Below, one piece after another: positions 24,782-46,862 of a stretch of DNA of 64,000 nt. Each line of letters starts with the position of its first letter. Position 1 is the stretch's first letter. The notes beneath the pieces are model-generated. The model was not told the DNA's origin. It saw only the letters and a program-made list of their open reading frames with translations, and made no database searches. The translations under genes were made by a program, and so were the position numbers. The stretch is from the NCBI RefSeq assembly GCF_028475105.1, contig NZ_CP116936.1, positions 5,765,501 through 5,829,500 on the forward strand, written 5' to 3'. This DNA is from Micromonospora sp. LH3U1 (lineage in GTDB: Bacteria > Actinomycetota > Actinomycetes > Mycobacteriales > Micromonosporaceae).

Positions 24782-24854
24782 GCGCCCGTAGCTCAGCGGA
24801 TAGAGCAGGGGACTTCTAATCCCAAGGTCGTAGGTTCGAACCCTACCGGGCGCA
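24782..24854 (+). tRNA. tRNA-Arg (anticodon TCT)
   Basis: Full cloverleaf: acceptor GCGCCCG with CGGGCGC and discriminator A, D arm GCTCAGCGGATAGAGC, anticodon loop CTTCTAA with TCT at 24815-24817, and T arm GTAGG-TTCGAAC-CCTAC. CCA is not encoded. Reads AGA codons, which are rare in such GC-rich genomes. Confidence 0.96.
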
Positions 24855-45284: not shown

Positions 45285-45386
45285 GGCACCCCTGTTACCC
45301 CGACCTCGCCCTCGGCACGCGATGTCCGCCCCGCATCTTGGGACGACGCGGCCGGCGTCCGCGACCGGTCGGGTAGGCTGGGCGAC

Positions 45387-45446
45387 GTGACGCGTTCGTA
45401 TCGATGGTTTAGGCAGCCGGCTGGCACGCCGGTGACTTCACCATGA
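45387..45446 (+). CDS. Aromatic leader peptide upstream of DAHP synthase
   Basis: GTG-started 19-codon frame with consecutive codons for Tyr, Arg, Trp and Phe (SYRWFRQPAG). A TAGGCT -10-like element lies seven bases before the GTG, suggesting a leaderless transcript. Together with the terminator and competing hairpins downstream, this is the arrangement of a ribosome-mediated attenuator sensing aromatic amino acids, the end products of the next gene's pathway. Confidence 0.7.
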   Translation: MTRSYRWFRQPAGTPVTSP

Positions 45447-45474
45447 ACTGACGTCACCACGGACCAAGCCGGCT

Positions 45475-45502
45475 GGGCAGGAGCTGTCGTTCCTGCCCTT
45501 TT
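45475..45502 (+). terminator. Attenuator terminator in the DAHP synthase leader
   Basis: GGGCAGGA and TCCTGCCC pair round an eight-base loop, followed by TTTT. The base just before overlaps AGCCGGCTG at 45467-45475, which can pair with CAGCCGGCT at 45412-45421 inside the leader, and so could compete with the terminator. Confidence 0.72.
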
Positions 45503-45558
45503 GCGTACGAGCAGCCGGCTCGTCCCGGGCACCGGCCCCGGGCACGGTCGGCGGAAGG

Positions 45559-46653
45559 ATGCCCACCGTGACGACCCCGGAGACCGATCGGGTCAGTGAT
45601 CAGCGGATCGACCGTGTCGTGCCGCTGACCACACCCGCCCTGCTGCACCACGAGCTGCCCCTGGACGCTCCGCTCGCCTCGGCCGTGCTGAACGGCCGTC
45701 GCGCGGTGGGTCGCGTGCTGGACCGCGAGGACGACCGCCTGCTGGTGGTGGTCGGCCCCTGCTCGGTGCACGATCCGGCCGCCGCGCTCGACTACGCCCA
45801 GCGCCTGCGCACGGCAGCCGACCAGCTGGCCGACGACCTGCTGATCGTCATGCGGGTCTACTTCGAGAAGCCGCGCTCCACGGTTGGCTGGAAGGGCCTC
45901 ATCAACGACCCGGGCCTGGACGGCAGCGGGGACGTCAACACCGGCCTGCGGCTGGCTCGGGCGCTGCTGCTCGACGTGCTGCGCCTCGGCCTGCCGGTGG
46001 GCTGCGAGTTCCTCGACCCGATCACACCGCAGTACATCGCGGACACGGTGGCCTGGGGTGCGATCGGCGCCCGCACCGTGGAGAGCCAGGTGCACCGCCA
46101 GCTCGCCTCCGGCCTGTCCATGCCGATCGGCATGAAGAACCGCCCGGACGGCAGCATCGGCACCGCCGTGGACGCGATCCGCGCCGCCGGGGTGCCGCAC
46201 GTCTTCCCCGGCATCGACTTCTCCGGCACCCCGGCGATCATGCACACCCGGGGTAACACGGACGGCCACCTGGTGCTGCGCGGCGGGGGCGGCCGGCCCA
46301 ACTACGACGCGGAGTCGGTCGCCGGCGCGCTCGACCTGCTCCGTGCGGCCAATTTGCCGGAGCGGCTGGTGATCGACGCCAGTCACGCCAACAGCGGCAA
46401 GGACCACCGCAACCAGCCGAAGGTCGCCGCGGACGTGGCCGCCCAGTTGGCGGCCGGCCAACGCGGAATCACCGGCGTGATGCTGGAGTCGTTCCTGCTG
46501 CCCGGCCGGCAGGAACTCGACCCCACCCGGGAGCTGGTGTACGGCCGGTCGGTCACCGACGCCTGCCTCGGCTGGGACGACACGGCCGAGGTGCTCGACC
46601 ACCTGGCCTCCGCCGTGCGGGCCCGCCGGGCCACCCTGCCGACCACGGTCTGA
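45559..46653 (+). CDS. aroG: 3-deoxy-7-phosphoheptulonate synthase (DAHP synthase, class I)
   Basis: First step of aromatic amino-acid synthesis, condensing PEP with erythrose-4-phosphate. The 364-residue chain is of the AroF/G/H type: LLVVVGPCSVHDPAAALDYA, MRVYFEKPRSTVGWKGLINDP, CEFLDPITPQYIADTVAWGAIGARTVESQVHRQLASGLSMPIG, and LVIDASHANSGKDHRNQ for metal and substrate. ATG at 45559 follows GGCGGAAGG. The leader peptide and terminator upstream predict control by Tyr, Trp or Phe. Confidence 0.95.
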   Translation: MPTVTTPETDRVSDQRIDRVVPLTTPALLHHELPLDAPLASAVLNGRRAVGRVLDREDDRLLVVVGPCSVHDPAAALDYAQRLRTAADQLADDLLIVMRVYFEKPRSTVGWKGLINDPGLDGSGDVNTGLRLARALLLDVLRLGLPVGCEFLDPITPQYIADTVAWGAIGARTVESQVHRQLASGLSMPIGMKNRPDGSIGTAVDAIRAAGVPHVFPGIDFSGTPAIMHTRGNTDGHLVLRGGGGRPNYDAESVAGALDLLRAANLPERLVIDASHANSGKDHRNQPKVAADVAAQLAAGQRGITGVMLESFLLPGRQELDPTRELVYGRSVTDACLGWDDTAEVLDHLASAVRARRATLPTTV

Positions 46654-46739: not shown

Positions 46740-46862
46740 GCCTCACCTAAATAGCCTTCGCGGAATACCGTCCGGCTGGAGCCGCGTAGTGCCACTCGCC
46801 GAGAGGCGACCTGCACGCCGACACCAGCGCCGCCCCCGGCCCACCAGCCGGGGGCGGCGCTG
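46740..46862 (+). ncRNA. Candidate structured small RNA ending in a strong terminator
   Basis: No coding frame is convincing here. The interval holds GGCTGGAGCC, CGCC-GAGA-GGCG (a GNRA-loop hairpin) and then the strong terminator at 46825-46862. A TTGACA lies at 46706-46711. It may be an sRNA or only the 3' region of DAHP synthase mRNA; no known RNA family is recognised. Confidence 0.3.
46825..46862 (+). terminator. Perfect 16-bp terminator
   Basis: CAGCGCCGCCCCCGGC and its exact complement flank CCACCA. Could end DAHP synthase transcription or the candidate small RNA. Confidence 0.75.

Follow-up and report, generated by a model that had tools for sequence, protein, structure and literature searches.

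The window analysed here is the whole 64,000-nucleotide stretch of Micromonospora sp. LH3U1 DNA, and one of its genes encodes a class I DAHP synthase of the aroFGH type. DAHP synthase is the entry enzyme for all three aromatic amino acids, and this entry step of the shikimate pathway also feeds many actinobacterial antibiotics. The query enzyme has a single match in its own complete genome of 7.09 Mb, and its best named matches come from Micromonospora. Upstream of the gene lie a short leader reading frame, a hairpin followed by a run of T residues, and a series of segments with more than one possible pairing partner (Table 1). The initial annotation of this DNA had described a 19-codon GTG frame with Tyr-Arg-Trp-Phe in a row, and that frame is indeed present; it had not mentioned the -10 box of the TANNNT type just before it.

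The beginning of the enzyme gene was called by visual inspection of this sequence together with some relatives. The motif GGAAGGA, within 45553-45570, overlaps the ATG at 45559, an in-frame GTG stands at 45568, and some relatives (L083, for example) retain the corresponding GTG without the ATG. The GTG at 45568 behind GGAAGGA is probably the real start. Beyond the gene, the intergenic stretch 46825-46862 holds a long GC-rich hairpin (CAGCGCCGCCCCCGG ... CCGGGGGCGGCGCTG) that carries no U-tract.

Table 1. Elements of the leader region and the gene that follows it, in order along the window.
Feature	Position	Strand	Remarks
-10 box TAGGCT	45374..45379	+	called from sequence
Leader peptide ORF VTRSYRWFRQPAGTPVTSP	45387..45446	+	19 codons, GTG start, stop TGA 45444-45446
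Segment 1 (GTGACG)	45387..45392	+	complementary to segment 2
Control codons TAT CGA TGG TTT (Tyr-Arg-Trp-Phe)	45399..45410	+	
Segment A	45414..45423	+	3 nt (45411-45413) past the Phe codon; partner A' or alternatively A*
Segment A* (GCCGGTGAC)	45428..45436	+	partner A or segment 2
Segment 2 (CGTCACC)	45452..45458	+	3' of leader stop
Segment A' (AGCCGGCTG)	45467..45475	+	adjoins terminator; partner A or A''
Terminator hairpin T (predicted)	45475..45498	+	followed by TTTT 45499-45502
Segment A'' (GCAGCCGGCT)	45511..45520	+	3' of T, able to pair with A'
Class I DAHP synthase (aroFGH type)	45559..46653	+	TIGR00034 470.9 bits, PF00793 284 bits

In the available text of a study of Streptomyces lividans, TAnnnT is the -10 motif and lies on average 6.3 nt upstream of the transcription start (PMC8079986). 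Because TAGGCT stands only 7 nt before the GTG, the leader mRNA is predicted to be leaderless, probably opening with the leader frame itself. The same spacing recurs in relatives: of 150 leaders, chosen for having TANNNT 5-9 nt before RTG, 111 show a spacing of 7 nt, 34 of 6 and 5 of 8.

The distribution of the leader was followed with a single rule, a TANNNT box and an RTG frame of 12-30 codons with at least two aromatics in 6 codons. The family set comprised 104 of the 127 match places in 150 family genomes. A leader precedes 89 of the 90 places whose enzyme is 60% or more identical to the query DAHP synthase, and none of the 14 with 59% or less, which are more distant paralogues. A class-wide set drawn from 64 genomes, minus one fragment (G392) and three duplicates, gave 60 further places, 41 of them with a leader; 17 of the 19 without belong to family f16, where class I DAHP synthase lacks the leader in 17 of 17 cases. 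Among the matches listed for the order, 20 places were sampled, of which 13 pass the rule, one more has a longer leader, and 6 are class I DAHP synthase loci without one. The frame at L255, with 35 residues, exceeds the 30-residue limit and fails the rule, and L201 was excluded as the end of a neighbouring gene. Twenty of 24 named actinobacterial loci pass as well; these 20 are counted in the overall total of 204, and the four that fail (L008, L015, L045 and L060) lie outside it. All told, 163 of 204 actinobacterial regions hold such a leader, against 5 of 2000 shuffles under the identical rule (20 shuffles from each of 100 of the 204 regions). With at least three aromatics in 6 codons the figures become 156 of 204 and 1 of 2000. 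One of the four failing loci, L015, comes from a Streptosporangiaceae MAG; both A and A' are recognisable there, along with the codons for WYWRF behind a TATATT box, about 220-70 nt 5' of the match, in a frame without the usual stop; by that stop-less frame it is apparently a decaying or lengthened leader.

Tyr occurs in 162 of the 163 leaders, Phe in 161, Trp in 145 and all three together in 142, so the expectation that Tyr-Arg-Trp-Phe would be conserved among relatives is borne out for Tyr and Phe, which are nearly invariant, usually for Trp, and not for the exact string, which is one of several (FYWF, WYSWF, YWRF, YQRF, YPYF, WYAYF and YFWF occur in relatives). Tyr is written TAT 176 times and TAC 9 times in the 163 leaders, and Phe is written TTT 175 times and TTC 26 times. 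Over codons 1-333 of each of 57 genes for DAHP synthase the counts are 1 TAT to 292 TAC and 5 TTT to 340 TTC, so that the leaders favour the very codons the genes avoid. Rare control codons sharpen attenuators, though selection for an AU-rich unstructured stretch could be an alternative cause of the preference for TAT and TTT.

The initial annotation had also regarded an attenuator before DAHP synthase that senses all three aromatic end products through single codons as unusual, and the arrangement is not unusual: a putative Phe-Tyr-Phe leader is on record in Corynebacterium glutamicum (see below), and short frames in which 6 or more of 8 codons are aromatic lie 5' of the class I enzyme at 22 of 56 non-actinobacterial loci, a raw count without a null. 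Such frames occur at L018, L027, L028, L037, L043, L066, L067, L074, L075, L077 and others, one of the 22 being an Anaerolineae MAG (L039). The proteobacterial ones, with Burkholderia and Xanthomonas among the examples, read for instance MSAKFYFYFFWYLRPLADREG and MNANRSFYFWYYGFPMPLAEEGVRSP and stand some 160-280 nt 5' of the DAHP synthase match. The non-actinobacterial frames are, it appears, independent or very ancient versions.

An RNA covariance model, R1, built from 38 sequences, carried the search beyond the leader frame. R1 finds one copy of the element in the Micromonospora genome; the only candidates for a second copy were two weak matches (E 2.8 and 9.2), which were rejected. With a cut-off of E <=0.001 it matches 69 of the 393 genomes of the class, a count from which the filters lose some weak matches, and one further match in G201 (E 0.004) was dropped when no aromatic leader could be recognised there. 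The element precedes class I DAHP synthase in 51 of the 69 genomes (partly placed from the order sample, among the matches listed). The other 18, all in family f16, have it before a chorismate mutase (PF01817), an enzyme that stands alone or is fused to a partial DAHP-synthase-like domain (by Pfam in 7 of 18, by similarity in the rest). At L277-L279 that fused domain covers only part of PF00793; it may be degenerate and non-catalytic. Rfam yielded only a tRNA at 24782 in the 64-kb window and, for L001 and 10 other loci (4 with the element, 6 non-actinobacterial), nothing at the gathering score; with E relaxed to 5, the region gave two chance microRNA matches on the other strand.

Of the three aromatic amino acids, chorismate mutase serves the synthesis of Phe and Tyr but not of Trp, and the leaders before it (L277-L279 and L281-L295; for example MGRYSSFTRPAPGGPVA and MDRYFAFTEPAPEGRS) have Phe in 18 of 18, Tyr in the core of 11 (12 with one tail residue) and Trp in none. 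The contrast in Trp, 0 of 18 against 145 of 163 before DAHP synthase, is large on these counts, yet it comes from essentially one lineage. It bears on the possibility that the leader senses Phe alone, or Phe together with Tyr, and that the Trp codon is incidental. Trp is missing from 18 of the 163 DAHP synthase leaders (including 14 of 19 in family f19) and Phe from only 2; all 18 chorismate mutase leaders hold TTT close before segment A; and, in the accessible part of a review, transcription of C. glutamicum aroF rises under Phe limitation with no effect of Tyr availability (PMC11802643, citing Neshat et al. 2014). The contrast between the two sets of leaders is nonetheless what a role for Trp in control of the common entry enzyme would predict, and we lean, without great conviction, against the Trp codon being incidental. 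The same natural contrast, with DAHP synthase leaders mostly carrying Trp and chorismate mutase leaders devoid of it, makes codon sensing directly testable.

Between the leader and the gene, a search for hairpins with a U-tract found one in 801 bases where 0.1 are expected in shuffles, in agreement with the hairpin ending in TTTT that the initial annotation had placed after the leader. RNA from the leader to this hairpin folds better than 200 of 200 dinucleotide shuffles (z -4.3). Compensatory changes among relatives, proposed at the outset as a check, are present in both stems: in 38 aligned relatives 8 of the 9 pairs of T are changed on both sides, with 97.7% of cells pairing, as are 2 of the 5 consensus pairs of helix A:A', and the covariation score of the two jointly was reached by none of 500 shuffles. 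Of 150 leader regions, 130 have an assigned T (the rule gives 135, from which 5 of the second type described below are subtracted). U-tracts are short in the leader regions sampled for the helix tests, and at least 5 T follow the terminator in the chorismate mutase elements that were read (L277-L279, L281, L284 and L287). Signature and covariation together mark T as a predicted intrinsic terminator between leader and gene. Partner swapping between the two arms of T was set aside as evidence, the hairpin having been chosen as the best native one and the test being biased for that reason.

The pairing segments usually follow one another in the order 1 (with the start and control codons), A, A*, leader stop, 2, A', T, A'', and in most sequences A begins a few nucleotides 3' of the last Phe codon. 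Of two complementary segments noted earlier, both exist and the second was correctly placed at 45467-45475; the first is 45414-45422 and not 45412-45421. Five helices among these segments were examined by comparing duplex energies of native partners with those of partners exchanged among 23 cluster representatives, which include two of the second type with T misassigned (L227 and L244), in permutations that ignore phylogeny. Helix A:A' has -23.34 native against -17.68 swapped (sd 0.80), helix 1:2 -11.35 against -8.54 (sd 0.46), A:A* -19.80 against -17.60 (sd 0.59) and A':A'' -18.03 against -15.76 (sd 0.60). The weakest of the five is A*:2, at -10.28 against -9.02 (sd 0.48; p 0.01). With 58 representatives all five reach z -6 to -10. 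Two samplings of 9 are weaker, giving p 0.055 and 0.017 for A:A* and p 0.012 and 0.20 for A*:2, the last among the 9 representatives at the 0.70 cut; two of the three repeat samplings omit the five second-type sequences. The alternative helices are, on this comparison, well supported. Helices 1:2 and A:A' cross each other and are therefore mutually exclusive unless a pseudoknot forms.

The alternative stem proposed in the initial annotation, A:A', co-varies; it does not compete with the terminator, for A' ends where T begins and the two share a single base (45475). Among the 23 representatives, pairing of the 5' arm of T with segments 1, A, A*, 2 or A'' beats no swapped partners, and three repeat samplings again gave nothing for 1, A, A* and 2; these pairings serve as negative controls for the five helices. 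Equilibrium folding retains T in 22 of the 23 at any ribosome position, the exception being L244, of the type without this T. With no co-variation of the arm with any of the five segments and T so persistent, a textbook antiterminator that takes the 5' arm of T is not supported.

The effect of a ribosome was modelled by masking segment 1 up to an aromatic codon and counting expected pairs. Masking removes 1:2 by construction and, as the mean of the 23 representatives in transcripts ending at T, lifts A:A' from 7.4 to 9.1 expected pairs and A*:2 from 5.8 to 8.5. For the Micromonospora sequence the model predicts next to no 1:2 or A:A*, whatever the state. A Tyr stall on its full-length RNA gives A:A' at 11.8 expected pairs; Trp and Phe stalls, which cover part of segment A, give mostly A':A'', at 10.1 with Trp (A:A' 1.4) and 7.6 with Phe (A:A' 4.8). 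Since Tyr stalls and Trp or Phe stalls lead to different helices, no single stalled fold can be assigned to this sequence.

A second type of element is recognised in 19 sequences from Rhodococcus, Nocardia and Amycolatopsis-like genomes (L009, L010, L012, L013, L016, L020, L022, L024, L031, L209, L226, L227, L244, L250, L252, L254-L256 and L264). Judged by eye, it has no T between A' and A''; its strongest hairpin after the leader runs from the start of A'' to the edge of the Shine-Dalgarno sequence in 12 of the 19, is A':A'' in 6, and is another one in L250. Swapping did not demonstrate its helices (1:2 p 0.055, A:H5 p 0.21, in sequences that are much alike), and the test of the hairpin is biased by the way it was chosen. 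There are hints here of a translational output, and one might extend these to the whole family: the leader would then act on the start of translation, with A, A', A'' and the hairpin at the Shine-Dalgarno sequence relaying the signal by pairing and T serving mainly as a spacer. The 19 sequences and the finding that modelled ribosome positions leave T unaffected favour such an arrangement, and the better native match of the hairpin arms (p 0.0005) proves nothing, because the hairpin was picked as the best native one. In the type found in Micromonospora, however, swapping among the 23 representatives revealed no co-variation of A'' or A' with the Shine-Dalgarno region, and sequestration of the latter by A'' was rejected (-24.87 native against -24.83 swapped). 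Moreover, a T hairpin is assigned in most leader regions, and the chorismate mutase elements named above follow theirs with at least 5 T. A purely translational leader is on these grounds improbable. That frame and hairpin arose by chance, or that the frame is kept as a small functional protein, is scarcely credible: short frames are common in GC-rich DNA, yet the contrasts with paralogues and with shuffles set out above indicate that the leader frame is not a chance feature, and relatives that retain the aromatic codons and the RNA pairing differ greatly in the latter half of the peptide.

We favour the reading first proposed for this DNA, in which DAHP synthase is preceded by an attenuator with an aromatic leader peptide. 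The leader is widely conserved and prefers rare codons, its predicted terminator and helices co-vary, and it appears to be akin to the aroR leader of C. glutamicum; we put the probability of an aroR-type, ribosome-mediated attenuator at about 0.85. Leader, control codons, rare-codon choice, predicted terminator and alternative helices are conserved as far as sequence comparison can tell, and from them we infer the regulation itself, that is, stalling, termination and the direction of the response. RNA polymerase would start at or beside the GTG, giving a message that opens with the leader, and a ribosome would then decode TAT, TGG and TTT, of which two are rare codons. As long as charged tRNA-Tyr, tRNA-Trp and tRNA-Phe are in ample supply, the ribosome would proceed and most transcripts would stop at T. 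Were one of these charged tRNAs scarce, the ribosome would stall over segment 1, the codon deciding how far A is covered as well. Such a stall would tilt the balance among the alternatives (1:2 with A:A*, A:A' with A*:2, and A':A''), with more read-through into DAHP synthase as the outcome.

A more elaborate version can be imagined, which we regard as rather doubtful. The element would be a class-wide actinobacterial RNA family unmatched by Rfam. A ribosome halted at the rare aromatic codons would control an intrinsic terminator without a competing antiterminator by switching between the crossing helices 1:2 and A:A', the latter placing that ribosome at the terminator's base; the sensor would have been refitted with a Shine-Dalgarno hairpin as output (the Rhodococcus type) and moved to chorismate mutase, shedding Trp. 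If true, terminator control without a competing antiterminator would be a mechanism deserving dissection.

Leader attenuation is classically known from the enterobacterial trp, phe and ilv operons, and ilv leaders carry codons for several amino acids. The element described here has in common with these systems a leader ORF with control codons for products of the pathway, alternative stems and a (predicted) terminator. It differs in that no antiterminator overlapping the terminator was found among the segments compared, and in its use of single codons for three amino acids. Within the Actinobacteria, the accessible text of a 2005 survey describes trp leader attenuators in Streptomyces and Corynebacterium, as well as the LEU element before leuA, whose run of codons has the Shine-Dalgarno box as its pairing partner (PMC1262725). 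The leader described here resembles LEU in having its codon region in a conserved pairing, with a pseudoknot or crossing helices possible, and departs from it in that segment 2 is the partner of this region and in having a predicted terminator.

The closest known system is aroR of C. glutamicum, where a gene for DAHP synthase is likewise preceded by an aromatic leader peptide, and the present element is very probably a sensor of this already reported kind. A putative Phe-Tyr-Phe leader before aroF appears in the available portion of PMC4046766, and aroR is called a translational regulatory leader peptide in that of PMC7356990. The Micromonospora element shares the short ORF with clustered Phe and Tyr codons directly 5' of a class I DAHP synthase; the codons are Phe-Tyr-Phe there and Tyr-Arg-Trp-Phe here, and the element described here is known from its sequence alone. 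Crossing helices and a missing antiterminator were found here, and no description of either for aroR turned up in the text available on it. A possible bridge between the two is provided by two Corynebacterium-like genomes (L245 and L246), whose WRFYF leaders agree in the FYF motif and in the order A, A', T, and which R1 recognises without having been trained on them at 29.4 bits (E 3e-6) and 22.4 bits (E 1.6e-4), respectively. With the same model L277, a true element, scores 20.0 bits when read on the wrong strand; this is close to L246, which taken alone is for that reason weak.

An aro leader is not named in the parts available of the S. lividans paper (PMC8079986) or of one on C. diphtheriae, and the open-access literature searched, with subscription papers mostly outside it, gave no report of the element in Micromonosporaceae or before chorismate mutase. 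Taken with its wide occurrence, the aroR precedent places the element among leaders of a known kind whose range is broader than in the earlier reports found. One reported leader, that of C. glutamicum, is in this way extended to a family present in several actinobacterial families, and the extension contrasts with the 2005 survey, the available text of which reports no conserved RNA structures 5' of Phe or Tyr operons and no RNA control of them (PMC1262725).
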